A stretch of 37,611 nt of DNA from Caldifarciminota bacterium. Lineage in GTDB: Bacteria; Hydrothermota; Tepidihabitantia; Tepidihabitantales; Tepidihabitantaceae. Of this stretch, positions 815-29,565 are shown in pieces (within the stretch, counting starts at the first letter, position 1; each line of letters starts with the position of its first letter). The translations under genes were made by a program, and so were the position numbers. The DNA lies in assembly GCA_026397595.1 (NCBI GenBank), contig JAPLUO010000223.1:1-37611 (forward strand). Reading direction: 5' to 3'. A model generated the notes under the pieces. It saw only the letters and a program-made list of their open reading frames with translations. It was not told where the DNA came from and did no database searches.

Positions 815-1936
815 ATGAAGGCGATGCTGCTCGCGCGCATCGGTCGCCTGCAAGAAGCGCCGCTGGTCCCCTCTAACCTGCCCGACCCGGTCCCGGCCGC
901 GGGCGAACTGCTCCTGAAAGTCTTGGCCTGCGGAGTCTGTCACACCGAGCTTGATGAAATCGAAGGCCGGACTCCGCCGCCGAAACTGCCGGTGATTCCC
1001 GGACACCAGGTTGTCGGAAGGGTCGTGGCGCTTGGCACGACGGACTTGGGACACGATCCGGAATCGCAGAAGGGGGACAGTCCCCGGCGCTCGAAGCGCC
1101 GCAATCCGGTACAGTCCCCACGATTCCGGTCATGTCCCGCGTCCCAGCGATTCCGGGTGGGCGAACGCGTGGGCGTGGCGTGGATTTTCTCCGTCTGCGG
1201 CCGGTGCGAGTACTGCCGCAGCGGACAGGAGAACCTCTGCCCCGAATTCAGAGCCACGGGCCGCGATGCCAATGGCGGCTATGCCGAGTACATGACGGTG
1301 CCTGAAGGCTTCGCATTCTCGATACCGGAAGTGTTCGCTGACGCCGAAGCCGCGCCTTTGCTCTGCGCCGGAGCCGTCGGCTATCGCTCGCTGCGGCTGA
1401 CGGGTATCAAGGACGGTCAGAACCTCGGCCTGACCGGTTTCGGTGCGTCAGGACACTTGGTGTTGAAGATGGTGAGGCGCCAGTATCCGAAGACGCACGT
1501 CTATGTGTTCGCCCGCAGCAAAGAGGAGCAGGCCTTCGCCCGCGAACTCGGCGCGACGTGGGCCGGCGACACGGACGACCAAGCCCCAGAACTGCTCGAT
1601 TCCATCATTGACACGACCCCGGTCTGGAAACCCGTCGTCGCAGCACTCGGGAATCTGAAGCCGGGCGGCAGGCTGGTCATCAACGCGATTCGGAAAGAGG
1701 AAACCGACAAGGCCGCGCTCCTTGGGTTGGACTACGCGAAGCACCTGTGGATGGAGAAGGAAATCAAGAGCGTGGCCAATGTCACGCGCCAGGATGTAGC
1801 CGAGTTCCTCGAACTGGCGGCCCGGATTCCCATCAAGCCCGAGATTCAGGAATACGCGCTCGAAGACGCGAACCAAGCCTTGCTCGAACTCAAAGAGCGC
1901 CGCATCCGCGGCGCCAAAGTCCTACTGATGGCCTAG
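815..1936 (+). CDS. Zinc-dependent alcohol dehydrogenase family protein (with a 33-codon repeat insertion)
   Basis: CGVCHTELDEIEG, PVIPGHQVVGRVVALG, CGRCEYCRSGQENLC, RVGERVGVAW motifs; residues 78-110 are repeat-derived. Confidence 0.92.
   Translation: MKAMLLARIGRLQEAPLVPSNLPDPVPAAGELLLKVLACGVCHTELDEIEGRTPPPKLPVIPGHQVVGRVVALGTTDLGHDPESQKGDSPRRSKRRNPVQSPRFRSCPASQRFRVGERVGVAWIFSVCGRCEYCRSGQENLCPEFRATGRDANGGYAEYMTVPEGFAFSIPEVFADAEAAPLLCAGAVGYRSLRLTGIKDGQNLGLTGFGASGHLVLKMVRRQYPKTHVYVFARSKEEQAFARELGATWAGDTDDQAPELLDSIIDTTPVWKPVVAALGNLKPGGRLVINAIRKEETDKAALLGLDYAKHLWMEKEIKSVANVTRQDVAEFLELAARIPIKPEIQEYALEDANQALLELKERRIRGAKVLLMA
1046..1144. repeat. Dispersed palindromic element, copy A (inside ADH CDS, with a second hairpin repeat nested in its loop)
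   Basis: TTGGGACACGATCCGGAATCG...CGATTCCGGTCATGTCCCGCG; shares termini with copies at 1940 and 10523. Confidence 0.85.
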
Positions 1937-1939
1937 CCC

Positions 1940-1992
1940 GCTTGGGACACGATCCGAAACCGCCGCGCCGGTTTCGGTCATGTCCCGCGCTC
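1940..1992. repeat. Dispersed palindromic element, copy B (intergenic)
   Basis: GCTTGGGACACGATCCGAAACCGCCGCGCCGGTTTCGGTCATGTCCCGCGCTC. Confidence 0.85.
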
Positions 1993-9770: not shown

Positions 9771-10628
9771 TCAGCGAGCGAAGATGGGTTCGACCGAGGC
9801 GGACTCGACCCAGCCGCCATCGCCGCCCGGAATCTGGATGAGGACGTAGCCGGGACGCTGCTCGCGCAGCATCACCTCGAGCCCGTCGTGGACGACAGCA
9901 ATCTCTTTGTACTCCGCGCCCGGGCCGCTGCGAAGGGTGAGTTCGGGCTGGACCACGACCGCGTGCTCCGAACCGGTGACCGCCGCCCAACTTGCCGCGG
10001 AGACAAAGCAGTAGACAAACACGACCCCGAGCCCGAGCGCAATCCAGCCGAACAGGCGCCCGCCGCGCACGAAGAGCAGCGCAACCGCGGCGAGGGCAAG
10101 GAAGAAGAAGAGCCCGGACAGGACGCGCGCGGAGGCGGCATCGAGCAGGCGCAGGGCGTCATTAAGCATCCGTACCAATGGATTCTCGATGGTCATGGTC
10201 TTGTCCGGCCGGAACTGGCGGGCAAAGGCGAGGTTGTGGATGATGTCTTTGTCGTGCGGTCTTAGTACGTATGCCCGGTCATAGTCGGCGATGGCTCGGC
10301 CGATTTCGCCGAGCTTGAAGTGCGCGTTGCCGCGATTGTAGAGCAGCTCCGCGCTGGTCATGCCCGCGGCGGCGCTGTCATAAAGCGCGACCGCGCCGGC
10401 AAAGTCGCCCGACTCATAGGCCGCATTGCCTCGGCCAAACAAGTCAGCGGGTGCAGCGGCAAATCCCAAACTCCAAATCCCGAATCCCAAACAAATCCCG
10501 ATTACCCAAGCCCCGATTCGCTGCTTGGGACACGATCCGAAACTCCGGGCAGTTTCGGTCATGTCCCGCGCTCCGTCTGCCGCGCACTTGACCACTAGAC
10601 CACTAGACCACTTGGCCACTCTCCGCAT
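9771..10628 (-). CDS. batE: BatE-like TPR plus SH3-like protein (aerotolerance operon)
   Basis: TPR repeats (NAAYESGDFAGAVALYDSAA), two TM segments, SH3-like ELTLRSGPGAEYKEIAVVHDGLEVML; start chosen at TGATG overlap with batD. Confidence 0.78.
   Translation of the reverse strand: MRRVAKWSSGLVVKCAADGARDMTETARSFGSCPKQRIGAWVIGICLGFGIWSLGFAAAPADLFGRGNAAYESGDFAGAVALYDSAAAGMTSAELLYNRGNAHFKLGEIGRAIADYDRAYVLRPHDKDIIHNLAFARQFRPDKTMTIENPLVRMLNDALRLLDAASARVLSGLFFFLALAAVALLFVRGGRLFGWIALGLGVVFVYCFVSAASWAAVTGSEHAVVVQPELTLRSGPGAEYKEIAVVHDGLEVMLREQRPGYVLIQIPGGDGGWVESASVEPIFAR
10449..10516. repeat. 7-bp word array (CAAATCC)n, encodes BatE signal-peptide-like segment
   Basis: CAAATCC CAAACTC CAAATCC CGAATCC CAAACAAATCC CGATTAC. 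Confidence 0.75.
10523..10573. repeat. Dispersed palindromic element, copy C (within BatE N-terminal coding region)
   Basis: GCTTGGGACACGATCCGAAACTCCGGGCAGTTTCGGTCATGTCCCGCGCTC. Confidence 0.85.
10587..10621. repeat. 8-bp word array (GACCACTA)n
   Basis: GACCACTA GACCACTA GACCACTT GGCCACTC. Confidence 0.8.
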
Positions 10629-21510: not shown

Positions 21511-21590
21511 ATCTACAATCTGGAATCTAGAATCTGAAACCAGTCGGCTGTTGGCCGTAAGCTGCAAGCTGAAAGCCGTCGGCTGTCATC
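21511..21590. repeat. Two adjacent 7-bp word arrays (ATCTGGA)n and (GTAAGCT)n followed by the TCATCATCGTCTCGACC motif
   Basis: ATCTACA ATCTGGA ATCTAGA ATCTGAA; GTAAGCT GCAAGCT GAAAGCC GTCGGCT. Confidence 0.75.
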
Positions 21591-21692
21591 ATCGTCTCGA
21601 CCAGACCGACCGTCTTGTCATGCCGCGTCTTGACATCGGCCGAGAATGCGAGACGTGTCGGTCGGTATCCATCGCTATCACCCGGCACGCTG

Positions 21693-22277
21693 CTACCTGC
21701 CTGCAAAAACCCACCCGGCACCCAAGCTCAGGCCGAGCGACACCCAGGCTCCGCCCCCACCGTATACCTCGACGGTGAGCACGCCCTGGACCGGGAACGC
21801 GACGCGCCGCGCGGCAACCGGAGTGAATCCGCCTTCCAGCCTGACCCTCGCCCCGGCGTTGAACCCTTGATCGAGCAGCAGCGATGCGCCCGCGCCATAC
21901 TTGGAGAACAGCGGGCCGTTGCCGATGCGGCGCATGACCGCGTACTTGAGCCCGAGTCCTGCCACGACCCCGCCGCCCTGCCCGCCGCTGCTACTGCCAA
22001 CAACCAAGTCGAGCCCGAGGTCGACCCCGATGCCCTGTCCGTTGGGCCACAGGAAGAGCGCGTCCGGTTCTACGCCAAGAGAAAACACGGAGCCCATCGC
22101 CACCAGACTGCCGGCCCCGCGCGCACGGACATCGACTACGACCGACCCGGGCCGGCCCGGACCGGCCATTGCCGCGCCAGCTACGGCCGGTGTCGCCGCT
22201 GCCAGCATGAGGGCAAGCCAGAACTCCCGTGTGTATTCCACTGTTTCACAACCCTTTTTCGACTGCCTGAACTTCAT
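21693..22277 (-). CDS. Hypothetical secreted or outer-membrane-like protein
   Basis: 194 aa Gly-rich with alternating pattern after a hydrophobic N-terminal stretch. Confidence 0.55.
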   Translation of the reverse strand: MKFRQSKKGCETVEYTREFWLALMLAAATPAVAGAAMAGPGRPGSVVVDVRARGAGSLVAMGSVFSLGVEPDALFLWPNGQGIGVDLGLDLVVGSSSGGQGGGVVAGLGLKYAVMRRIGNGPLFSKYGAGASLLLDQGFNAGARVRLEGGFTPVAARRVAFPVQGVLTVEVYGGGGAWVSLGLSLGAGWVFAGR

Positions 22278-22297
22278 CCTCGTCCGGGCCGTAAGCA

Positions 22298-22471
22298 GTA
22301 AGCCGCAAGCTGTCGGCTGTCATCATCGTCTCGACTAGCCAAGTTAGTTCGGCTGATTCGTACAACGTTCATCGTTGGTCGGAGTCACTCGGCGCGGCCC
22401 GTATTGCACGATGTACGAATCCTCCGGTGCAACGATGTACGATACATGTCGCGTCTCGGCATCGCTCGGGA
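22298..22471. repeat. 174-bp direct repeat, copy 1
   Basis: Near-identical to 23297-23470. Confidence 0.93.
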
Positions 22472-22645
22472 GTGCGAGAGGTGGGTATTCCTCGTTTCAG
22501 GGCGCTCCCCAGACAGATTCCTGATGAAATCTCAAGACGGAAGTCAGGAGGCGCGAGCAGGAAGCATTCTGCACCAGGTCCGCCGCAGCGACGGAAGCAG
22601 AGAGGGCGGACTTGCGCCCGCCCTCGCATTGGGCAACGAGGACTG

Positions 22646-23080
22646 CTAGGGCACGCGGCACTGAGCGACGTCGCTGTTAAAGTATTCCTGTTCCATGTCA
22701 TCATACCAGTCGAGCCCAAGAAAGAAGTCCTTGTCCAGGAACGACCCGGACGGCGCCGACTTCGACAATATAAGGGTGTCGGTGACGCCGAAGACTTTGT
22801 ATGTCTTTTCGCCGTTATCGTACTTATGGCCTTCCGAGTTGACCCAAGCCCAATTCAGCGTGATTGGCCACATCGTGTCGCCGCTGTCCCTGACCACCTT
22901 CACCTCGACCATGCAGGTGATCGTGTTCACGTACGAACCACCCTTCGGTTGTAGAAGTATGGCGAGTTTAAGGTGCGCATTGTACGGCAGCCTCTGGTGG
23001 CAGCCTGACCCGGAGCCGACGAAAGCCGCAAACGCCGCGATAATCACGGCGGCGGCCCTGCTGACCATGCTTCGCTGCAA
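22646..23080 (-). CDS. Hypothetical secreted protein/lipoprotein (TTG start)
   Basis: AGGAGG Shine-Dalgarno then TTG start; N-terminal hydrophobic segment followed by GSGSGC. Confidence 0.6.
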   Translation of the reverse strand: MQRSMVSRAAAVIIAAFAAFVGSGSGCHQRLPYNAHLKLAILLQPKGGSYVNTITCMVEVKVVRDSGDTMWPITLNWAWVNSEGHKYDNGEKTYKVFGVTDTLILSKSAPSGSFLDKDFFLGLDWYDDMEQEYFNSDVAQCRVP

Positions 23081-23296
23081 GATTCCTCCTTTGATTTCGC
23101 CGCCTGCATCGCCGCTGTCCTCGACAGCCGGCGGGCGGCCGCTTATCAGTCGGCCGTGATTCTATCGGGTCGGGGATTCAAGTCAAGACGCCCAGAACAA
23201 TGTGCGAGCCCGCCGCACTGTCCGACAGGGACCGCTGAGGCGAACCAACGCTGTGCGATTCGCCATCCCATTGCCCGAGGTCGTAAGCTGTTAGCT

Positions 23297-23470
23297 GTAA
23301 GCCGCAAGCTGTCGGCGGTCATCATCGTCTCGACTAGCCAAGTTAGTTCGGCTGATTCGTACAACGTTCATCGTTGGTCGGAGTCACTCGGCGCGGCCCG
23401 TATTGCACGATGTACGAATCCTCCGGTGCAACGATGTACGACTCATGCCGCGTCTCGGCATCGCTCGGGA
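23297..23470. repeat. 174-bp direct repeat, copy 2
   Basis: Near-identical to 22298-22471. Confidence 0.93.
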
Positions 23471-23494
23471 ATCCGGGAAGCGTCCATCGCGGCT

Positions 23495-24892
23495 CTATCT
23501 CACCTTCACAATACGCAGGGGTTTGCGGTGCTCGCCATCGGGCTTGATGAAGTACACCGCCGGCAAGAGCCCTTCCGCGACCCGGTTTCCCCGGCACACT
23601 CCCACCATCTTCCCGGAGATGTCATATAGGGAGAATTGCTCGGCCTCATGCCCGGGGATTCGGGCAAAGGACACGAAGGGATTGGGAGTCGCCTTCAAGC
23701 CGTCGGCTGACACCCGCCTGCTGCATCCCGGTTCTTCCACTCCCGAAACGCCATTCGAGTCGGTTTTGATGAGGTAAACATCCAGGGCACCTGCCCCGCG
23801 AGAGTTGGTCTGCCCGGCGATGACGTAGCCGCGGTCCGAGGTCTGCCGGACGTATTCGCCCTGATCCAGTCCCGCCCCTCCGTAGGTTCCGCTCCAGATG
23901 GCGTCCCCGGAGGCATCGGTCCGGACGAGGTAGACGTCGTAATTCCCGTAGGTTGTCGTGTTTCCCGCGACGATGTAGCCTCCATCCTCGGTCTGCTGGA
24001 TGGACTTGCCCAATTCGGCCTCCGCTGTTCCGTAGGTTCGAGTCCAGACGGTATCCCCGGAGGCATTCGTCTTGATGAGGTAGACGTCTGCGTTTACGGT
24101 GTCCCGGAAGGACGCGGCGTCTCCTGCGACTATGTAGCCCCCGTCTCTGGTCTCTCGAACGGAGTAGCCATTATCGGACTTGCTGCCTCCGTAGGTCCTC
24201 GTCCACTGAGCATTCCCGGAAGCGTCCGTCTTGATGAGCAGGACATCAGCTTCCACGCTGGAAGTCGTGTATCCTGCCATGATATAGCCATCGTCCGAGG
24301 TCTGCATAACGGAGAGAGCGTAGTTGTTGTACGTCGCGCCGCCATAGGACTGGAACCAGGACACGGACCCCAGGCTATCGGTCTTGACGAGCAAGGCCCT
24401 GTATCTACCGGGCTGGCTGTCGTCGGAGCATCCCGCGATTATGTAGCCGTGGTCAGCGGTCTGCTGACCGGACCAACCTTCATCGGCTCTCGGTCCTCCG
24501 AAGGTCCCGGTCCAAAGCGGCTCCCCAAGGGCATCCGTCTTGATGAGATAGACATCCACGCCGCCTGCCCCGAAGGAATACGTCGAACCGATGACGATGT
24601 AGCCCCCGTCGGAGGTCTGCTGGACGGCGTTGCCGACATCGCCTCCCGTCCCCCCGTAGGTCCGGGTCCAGACGGTGTCACCGGAAGCGTTCGTCTTGAT
24701 GAGGTACACATCAGTGATGCCGGCGCCGAAGGAATAGGTGTACCCGGCGACGATGTAGCCCCCGTCGGCGGTCTGCTGGACGGACTTGCCGTTGTCGCTG
24801 TTCGTCCCGCCGTAGGTCCGTCCCCACGTCTGCTGGGCAGGAACGAAGGATACAAGGAACAATACGGAAAGCATAACGCTGACGGTTTTCAT
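23495..24892 (-). CDS. Secreted 7-repeat (beta-propeller-like) protein with T9SS type A-like sorting C-terminus
   Basis: Seven units W(T)RTYGG..D.G.SVQQT.DGGYIVAG......DVYLIKTDASGD; C-terminus PNPFVSFARIPG...VYFIKPDGEHRKPLRIVKVR; signal MKTVSVMLSVLFLVSFVPAQQ. Confidence 0.85.
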   Translation of the reverse strand: MKTVSVMLSVLFLVSFVPAQQTWGRTYGGTNSDNGKSVQQTADGGYIVAGYTYSFGAGITDVYLIKTNASGDTVWTRTYGGTGGDVGNAVQQTSDGGYIVIGSTYSFGAGGVDVYLIKTDALGEPLWTGTFGGPRADEGWSGQQTADHGYIIAGCSDDSQPGRYRALLVKTDSLGSVSWFQSYGGATYNNYALSVMQTSDDGYIMAGYTTSSVEADVLLIKTDASGNAQWTRTYGGSKSDNGYSVRETRDGGYIVAGDAASFRDTVNADVYLIKTNASGDTVWTRTYGTAEAELGKSIQQTEDGGYIVAGNTTTYGNYDVYLVRTDASGDAIWSGTYGGAGLDQGEYVRQTSDRGYVIAGQTNSRGAGALDVYLIKTDSNGVSGVEEPGCSRRVSADGLKATPNPFVSFARIPGHEAEQFSLYDISGKMVGVCRGNRVAEGLLPAVYFIKPDGEHRKPLRIVKVR

Positions 24893-25188
24893 CGGAGGAC
24901 CTTCCTCTCTCTTTGCGGACCGTTGTGAAGAATGCTCTGCTCCCGACTCGGCCGGTCTGGGACGGTCGGATTCTCCCGGCAAACGCGATTCGCGTCAACT
25001 TTTCCCTCTTTACCAGGGAACCCGGTGGAGCGCGAGTCGAGGACCGGCCGCTGTCGGACAGCGCGGCGGAAACCGTACAACGTCCCATCGTCTGCCGACG
25101 CTACTCTCTATCCCTCCGGGAACGAGCAACGATGTTCGATGCAACGATGTACGAATCTCGCATCGTCTCGACCAACCCGACCATCTTA

Positions 25189-25860
25189 TCATGCCGCGCC
25201 GTCCCTCCTCGCGGTTCTTACCCGGTGCAACCGTTCCATGAAGCCGCCCTCCCGCTCGAAGGCTGCGGCCTGCGCCGCAAGCTGACGATCCAGAAGGTAA
25301 CAGCAGAGGTTCAGCAGCGAGAGCGCCCCATTGGCAGCAAGCTCGGCTGACGTCATGGACAGACAGCGACCTCCAACGACGGACAGGGACTCAGTTCCGC
25401 TGTTCCTCTGTCCTTGATTGTTCCTGGCTGTCTTTGCTCGTCTCTGCTCTTCCCTAACCCAGCTCTGCACGTCTTCCAGGGAAGCGCAGCGCTTGGCCTT
25501 GAAACGCACGAGCGCTGGTTCGTCGGGCGGCCACTGCGCGAGCCTATGCTGGCGCAGAAAGTCCTCGTAGTCTAGGCGCAACTCCTCCAGACTCGCTCGT
25601 GCCACGTTGGTCAGTTTGAGCTCGGTCTTCTTCGAGGTACCGGAGGCGAGGCTGCCTTCAGCGATGTTCTGCACCCCTGAACGGGCCGCCTGCACCATCT
25701 GGTCGTGAGTTCGGCTAAGCGGGCTGACGTAGCGGCCGCAGAACTGGACGGTCACGTCGTAGATGAGTTGCGCCTTTTGGAAACTTATCAGCTTCCGATA
25801 CCCACCGTGCTTCGGAATCAGAGATTCAGGCACCGGAGCGCGTCCAGGGTGCTGGTTCAT
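25189..25860 (-). CDS. Four-helix bundle protein (23S rRNA intervening-sequence protein-like) with suffix domain
   Basis: LISFQKAQLIYDVTVQF...DQMVQAARSGVQNIAEGSLASGTSKKTELKLTNVARASLEELRLDYEDFLRQ. Confidence 0.88.
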   Translation of the reverse strand: MNQHPGRAPVPESLIPKHGGYRKLISFQKAQLIYDVTVQFCGRYVSPLSRTHDQMVQAARSGVQNIAEGSLASGTSKKTELKLTNVARASLEELRLDYEDFLRQHRLAQWPPDEPALVRFKAKRCASLEDVQSWVREEQRRAKTARNNQGQRNSGTESLSVVGGRCLSMTSAELAANGALSLLNLCCYLLDRQLAAQAAAFEREGGFMERLHRVRTARRDGAA

Positions 25861-29229: not shown

Positions 29230-29565
29230 CTCCGCCGTTCCCCCCGTAGCAGTCCCAGTTGCTGTCCCTGTTGCTCTGTCGGTTGTGGTGTGAGTCGTTC
29301 TCCCCGTTGCTGTCCCGATTGCCCTCGGAATCGCTCGCCCGGTTGCTGTCCCGGTGGCGGGCCGAGTCGCTGTCCCCGTTGCTCTCTCCATCGTTCTACC
29401 CGTTGCTCTACCGGTCGCTCTGACCATTGCGGCCCGAGTCGCTCTACCGGTTGCCGTCCTCGTTGCTCTCCCCGTAGCTCTGACCATTGCTCTCCAGATT
29501 GCCGGTAGAGTAGCTTCCTGAGTTGCCGTCCGAGTCGCTCTGTCCATTGCCTGCCCGGTTGCAGG
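29230..29565. repeat. 12-bp minisatellite, 28 diverged units without indels
   Basis: Minus strand consensus AGAGCAACGGGG, e.g. AGAGCAATGGTC AGAGCTACGGGG AGAGCAACGAGG ACGGCAACCGGT AGAGCGACTCGG. Confidence 0.9.

Follow-up and report, generated by a model that had tools for sequence, protein, structure and literature searches.

How a dehydrogenase gene of a candidate-phylum bacterium comes to carry a palindrome within its reading frame, and what kind of element that palindrome is, are the questions raised by this locus. The window, by which we mean the whole stretch of 37,611 nucleotides analysed here, comes from a metagenome-derived genome (hereafter G000; 4.70 Mb in 494 contigs, with 6.6% contamination) of candidate division WOR-3, which corresponds to Caldifarciminota in the current NCBI taxonomy. 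The gene and its insertion are delimited as follows.

815..1936, + strand: zinc-dependent alcohol dehydrogenase (ADH) gene, 373 aa, with the insert as residues 78-110 (open frame, domain matches and alignment)
1046..1144, + strand: in-frame insertion of 99 bp, that is 33 codons, exact in length and with edges placed to within a few bases (alignment gap against 31 homologues from outside the genus)
1148..1156, + strand: host CGATTCCGG (Arg-Phe-Arg), a 9-bp direct repeat of 1121-1129 (sequence)

The frame 815-1936 stays open across the element, and its product carries the domains PF08240/PF00107 and matches TIGR02822 with 282.3 bits, slightly under the cutoff of 283.5 bits. A previous sequence-only reading had proposed an insertion of 33 in-frame codons, here located between LGTTD and QRFRVGERVG, and an alignment of 33 homologues bears this out: all 31 homologues from other lineages show a 33-column gap opposite the insert, while the remaining two belong to the same genus and each have a different insert at the site. 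Joining 1045 to 1145 gives LGTTDQRFRVGERVG and restores the family spacing, as had been predicted, and a search for homologues with an alignable insert but without a related DNA repeat found none among the distant ones. The exact element boundaries also claimed by that reading did not hold, their position being uncertain by several bases: the length of 33 codons is firm whereas the ends are not, and a 99-bp frame could equally be set a few bases to one side around a conserved core at 1048-1138. In an AlphaFold model of the enzyme (mean pLDDT 81.8), whose closest structural neighbour is an ordinary ADH (6iqd), the insert sits between strands 65-73 and 118-121, with residues 77-110 below 50 and the remainder good. 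As modelled, the insert would be a disordered loop; the peptide is presumably translated, and the folded enzyme would tolerate it in the GroES-like domain, as that reading had suggested.

The element itself is composite. Its outer hairpin, module A (GGGACACGATCC...GGTCATGTCCC), has for a loop a second palindrome, module B (GGGGACAGTCCCC), and the 99-nt insert folds with a z of -5.1 as DNA and likewise as RNA, none of 200 shuffles folding equally well. These parts, and two further copies of A in the window, are listed below.

1048..1138, + strand: conserved 91-nt core of the composite element A(B) (91-nt copies of G000 in MutS, contig C186, and ApbE, contig C490)
1048..1066, + strand: left arm of module A, GGGACACGATCC plus GGAATCG, with a conserved unpaired C and a bulged T (fold and covariation)
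1073..1119, + strand: module B inside the A loop, GGGGACAGTCCCC / GGCGC-loop-GCGCC / GGTACAGTCCCC (fold, motif counts and relatives)
1121..1138, + strand: right arm of module A, CGATTCC plus GGTCATGTCCC (fold)
1944..1986, + strand: short A copy of 43 nt, intergenic, starting 7 bp past the ADH stop codon (1934-1936)
10527..10567, + strand: short A copy of 41 nt, probably intergenic, 5' of a minus-strand gene near 9771-10500

The same palindrome had been reported at 1940 and 10523; this is true of A, the outer hairpin, which measures 43 and 41 nt there, but module B is absent from both places, where only the arms match the ADH element. Near-identical 91-nt copies do exist elsewhere in G000, on C186 within MutS (94%) and on C490 within ApbE (90%). 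Cores of A measure 39, 40, 42, 43, 64 or 91 nt, lengths that are mixed modulo 3, with 39-43 nt as the usual core and 91 as the nested form. Net inserts at several further sites amount to about 36-48 bp and depart from the 39-43 nt core, so that the edges of the element were remodelled. On the left the flanks agree on (G)GCTT and on the right, weakly, on GCGCC; the arms pair across almost the whole element, that is, as terminal inverted repeats. A 140-nt form (L035/L375, on C19 of G000) has yet another palindrome as its loop (TGTCATTCCGCG...CGGAATGACG); the A loop thus accepts several unrelated modules.

Covariation shows which property of module A is maintained. The comparison used 68 distinct short copies, drawn from G000 and its relative G003. 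Within a copy, the two arms are 96.8% complementary at their five variable positions, against 62.4% (maximum 68.8%) when the right arms are permuted among copies 2000 times. The pairs alternate G-C/C-G, A-T/T-A and T-A/C-G among copies, while the C:A mismatch and the bulged T are constant features of the stem; because the arm pairs switch together, the hairpin is maintained. G-T pairs are rare in these stems, which would fit a palindrome acting at the DNA level no less well than one acting in RNA. The element has no Rfam match up to E = 1, and no plasmid relatives of the 99-bp element were found.

That the palindrome is dispersed, as the sequence-only reading held, is confirmed by 56 matches in G000 at E<=10 (BLAST) and by 84 occurrences of the A arm motif GGGACAYGAYC, against 3 of its reversed control; GGGACWGTCCC occurs 152 times, against 2 for the control. 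A arm motifs number 39-153 per genome in six genus members, 35-62 in sister genus g6 and 36 in g3; elsewhere in the phylum, most genomes lie close to the control count. The repeat is confined to one WOR-3 genus together with a few sister genera. G007, a relative assembled as one contig, offered five paired A copies, too few to test an HUH mechanism by replichore orientation. The window holds other features of its own: several direct repeats of 38-192 bp (CATCGTCTCGACCAG..., CGGTGCAACGATGTACG...), 0.7-3.6 kb apart, form a second dispersed family at 21553-25198; a dense 12-bp tandem repeat (GCTCTxxCCGTT-like) at 29249-29562 seems to encode, on one strand, a degenerate protein repeat of 4 residues; and a small gene pair at 241-700, with the toxin ORF starting from about 470, resembles a RelE/ParE-type toxin-antitoxin system.

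In-frame insertion extends well beyond ADH. Our survey covered module A only, in 90 copies from two genomes (G000 and G003), whose flanks were scored by a codon model; its training set was 6,823 codons from 12 genes of the sister genome, which themselves contain repeats. In 31 of the 90 copies, a few of which sit in ORFs without clear identity, the two flanks code in one shared frame that stays open across the element; in 7 the coding flanks are out of frame, in 2 the shared frame meets a stop, and the others are intergenic, between opposite-strand genes, or ambiguous. Disrupted genes were ruled out as an explanation of the out-of-frame copies, for on inspection all seven fall between two different genes or at a gene end, with a different gene on each side in every case, and no clearly frameshifted gene was found among the 90. 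G003, which played no part in the choice of sites, has 22 of its 26 coding-flanked copies in frame (binomial P = 1e-7 against one-third, taking copies as independent). Module A is stop-free in five of six frames, and all five are occupied (9/8/6/5/3), with inserts in both orientations; no particular peptide is therefore favoured. Covarying arms and the use of all five stop-free frames together designate the hairpin, not the peptide, as the conserved entity.

The interrupted proteins include AlaRS (three copies), LysRS, RtcB, KdpC, a NuoG/Fdh-like protein (two copies) and RecF in G003, and MutS, NifS (two), RsmB, RecF, ApbE, a glycosyltransferase (two) and a radical SAM protein in G000, where several host names come from reading the sequence. 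At L358 (G003 C75:42000-45200), identified by a Pfam scan of fragments, a single AlaRS gene is interrupted by A at three places, each time in frame, with two different reading frames in use. An element also occurs at the N-terminus of UvrA, and at L078, near 1387-1429 (G000 C351), an A element lies across the stop codon of an antitoxin-like gene, just ahead of a MazF-like toxin gene, and may alter the junction of the two. RecF at L093 (G000 C416) combines a palindromic insert with about 90 in-frame residues of low-complexity filler (KSEARSQKLEVRS-like), and similar fillers lie within UvrA (L098) and MutS (L101); in this genus, in-frame entry into genes seems to extend to further dispersed repeats.

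Orthologous sites in the relatives are polymorphic, being empty or occupied by A, B, C (another module of the family) or nested forms. At ADH site 1, G000 carries A(B), both G001 and G002 carry B lacking the outer A arms, G004 carries C and G003 a filler repeat of unrelated sequence; ADH site 2 has differing inserts in G001, G002 and G003 and is empty in G000 and G004. In RecF, A is found alone in G003, C alone in G004, A with C inside in G000 and a composite in G001. The RsmB site holds A in G000 and G003, C in G001, G002 and G004, and is empty in G005 and the outgroups; a model of RsmB, built on a shallow alignment, is of low confidence over the insert (72-102) and its surroundings and adds little. 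All 19 inserts in unselected same-genus orthologues at the compared sites are in frame and open.

The explanation that we find very probable, taken as a whole, is that of a REP/MITE-like mobile palindrome, non-autonomous and translated as tolerated loops, whose hairpin is under selection and whose old copies are remodelled. Short modular hairpin repeats, A with B or C nested in its loop or replacing it, would have spread through one WOR-3 genus, inserting within genes as well as between them. The survivors would be frame-preserving insertions located in permissive loops, most of them at the surface, where they would be translated as roughly 12-33 additional residues, selection acting on the DNA hairpin rather than on the peptide. 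As lineages diverge, old insertions at the same loop would be remodelled, lost or exchanged. Mobility itself is suggested by presence or absence, and by exchange, at orthologous sites; no target-site duplication could be defined, the relatives being too diverged at the insertion sites.

As for the mobiliser, our guess is a Y1 (HUH) transposase acting in trans on the asymmetric hairpin. In IS200 and REP hairpins, Y1 (HUH) enzymes recognise an asymmetric stem, and the conserved mismatch and bulge of module A recall that asymmetry. It is possible, rather than probable, that these repeats are genuine REPs with a new class of tag, mobilised by RAYT-like Y1 transposases. Each of the 8 A-rich genomes that were checked has Y1_Tnp genes (4-7 in genus members, 5 in G007 and 2 in G010), as against just one of five A-poor genomes from the family, a correlation that is nevertheless confounded by kinship. 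Moreover, none of 31 loci examined has an A element beside a Y1_Tnp gene, and the ends of A carry no GTAG or CGTC tag.

Two other readings concern the history of the occupied sites. According to the first, which we judge unlikely, ADH received a single insertion in the ancestor of the genus, which has since decayed and been rearranged without ongoing mobility. Module B does lie at the same ADH position in G001 and G002, 86% identical to the window copy, and a similar same-locus pattern is known for RPE-4/6/7 of Rickettsia (PMC3767692). Yet the site is occupied by another module, C, in G004 and by unrelated filler in G003, several further sites are empty in some relatives, and the window copy is nearer to the MutS copy of its own genome (91%) than to the orthologous ADH copies (86%), a small difference in identity that suggests a separate insertion or homogenisation. 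According to the second, a speculative proposal to which we give a rather low probability, certain loops of conserved proteins in this genus (ADH sites 1 and 2, RecF, RsmB, MutS and ApbE) would be reusable slots, into which palindromic modules of unrelated kinds, and dispersed repeats of other sorts, repeatedly insert, nesting within one another, replacing one another and being lost again. If true, a continuing and possibly site-preferring mechanism would be diversifying protein loops genome-wide.

It is highly improbable that the element is excised after transcription or skipped in translation (intron-like, by ribosome bypass or by protein splicing), leaving a mature protein without the peptide. 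A highly stable hairpin flush with the insert, its location in conserved essential enzymes and the short direct repeat CGATTCCGG at its right border in ADH would suit such a process. However, precise removal requires neither a kept frame nor the lack of stops, and both are found despite core lengths mixed modulo 3; this retention of frame argues against removal as an intron or intein. Both orientations and five frames also occur, and the element, which lacks an Rfam match, falls short of intein size. Finally, an artefact of assembly or binning, conceivable for a metagenome-derived genome of 494 contigs with 6.6% contamination, can practically be dismissed, since the independent WOR-3 assemblies Zod_Metabat.816 and UBA2258 (L105, L106) have GGGGACAGTCCCC-type inserts at the identical ADH site, several genus members have related inserts at the same sites, and reading frames are preserved everywhere.

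Among known systems, the closest analogy, as already suggested from the sequence of this locus, is with the palindromic elements of Rickettsia (RPEs), which are in-frame palindromic insertions in unrelated genes (PMC10969869; PMC3767692; Ogata 2000, cited in both) and of which different groups may occupy one locus in orthologues (PMC3767692). The WOR-3 family shares with them a dispersed repeat folding as a palindrome, residence in frame within unrelated and often essential genes without destroying them, and the presence of different elements, or none, at one locus in orthologues. It differs in size (core of 39-43 nt, nested 91 nt, against about 100-150 bp for RPEs), in ends that lack the CGTC tag carried by RPEs at one end (PMC3733652), and in its host, an unrelated phylum with GC-rich DNA (62% GC in the window). 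It shows in addition module nesting, the use of five frames and no single conserved peptide, and no sequence relation to RPEs is apparent. The WOR-3 family works like RPEs but is not one of them by sequence or tag.

GTAG and CGTC REPs are also found within genes, with a reported preference for those of replication and repair (PMC3733652). They resemble the present family as hairpins of 20-40 bp, some within ORFs, and the WOR-3 hosts include MutS and RecF; however, the WOR-3 ends carry neither tetranucleotide tag, and about one third of the sorted A copies are intragenic. The likeness to RAYT/REPtron systems lies in an imperfect hairpin with conserved mismatch and bulge and in Y1 transposase genes within the same genomes, whereas no Y1_Tnp gene is flanked by the WOR-3 repeat (0 of 31 loci), in contrast to these systems and to GTAG REPs. 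Bacterial MITEs such as ERIC, Correia and RU-1/RU-2 are small inverted-repeat elements able to make in-frame fusions (PMC10969869, PMC2759123); the WOR-3 element has terminal inverted repeats as they do, but no target-site duplication was identified among comparators that are too diverged.

In the open-access literature searched, we found no description of a palindromic repeat family in WOR-3, and in-frame palindromic insertion in proteins was known earlier mainly from Rickettsia and from scattered REP cases. Here it occurs in a candidate phylum that is GC-rich and unrelated to Rickettsia; essential genes carry it at high density, the modules are visibly nested, and the occupants of the same loops are exchanged from species to species. 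This supports such insertion as a route that protein evolution has taken recurrently, and not as the quirk of a single intracellular lineage. The natural loop insertions in AlaRS, LysRS, MutS, RecF and ADH, several of which have empty relatives, make insertion tolerance directly testable.
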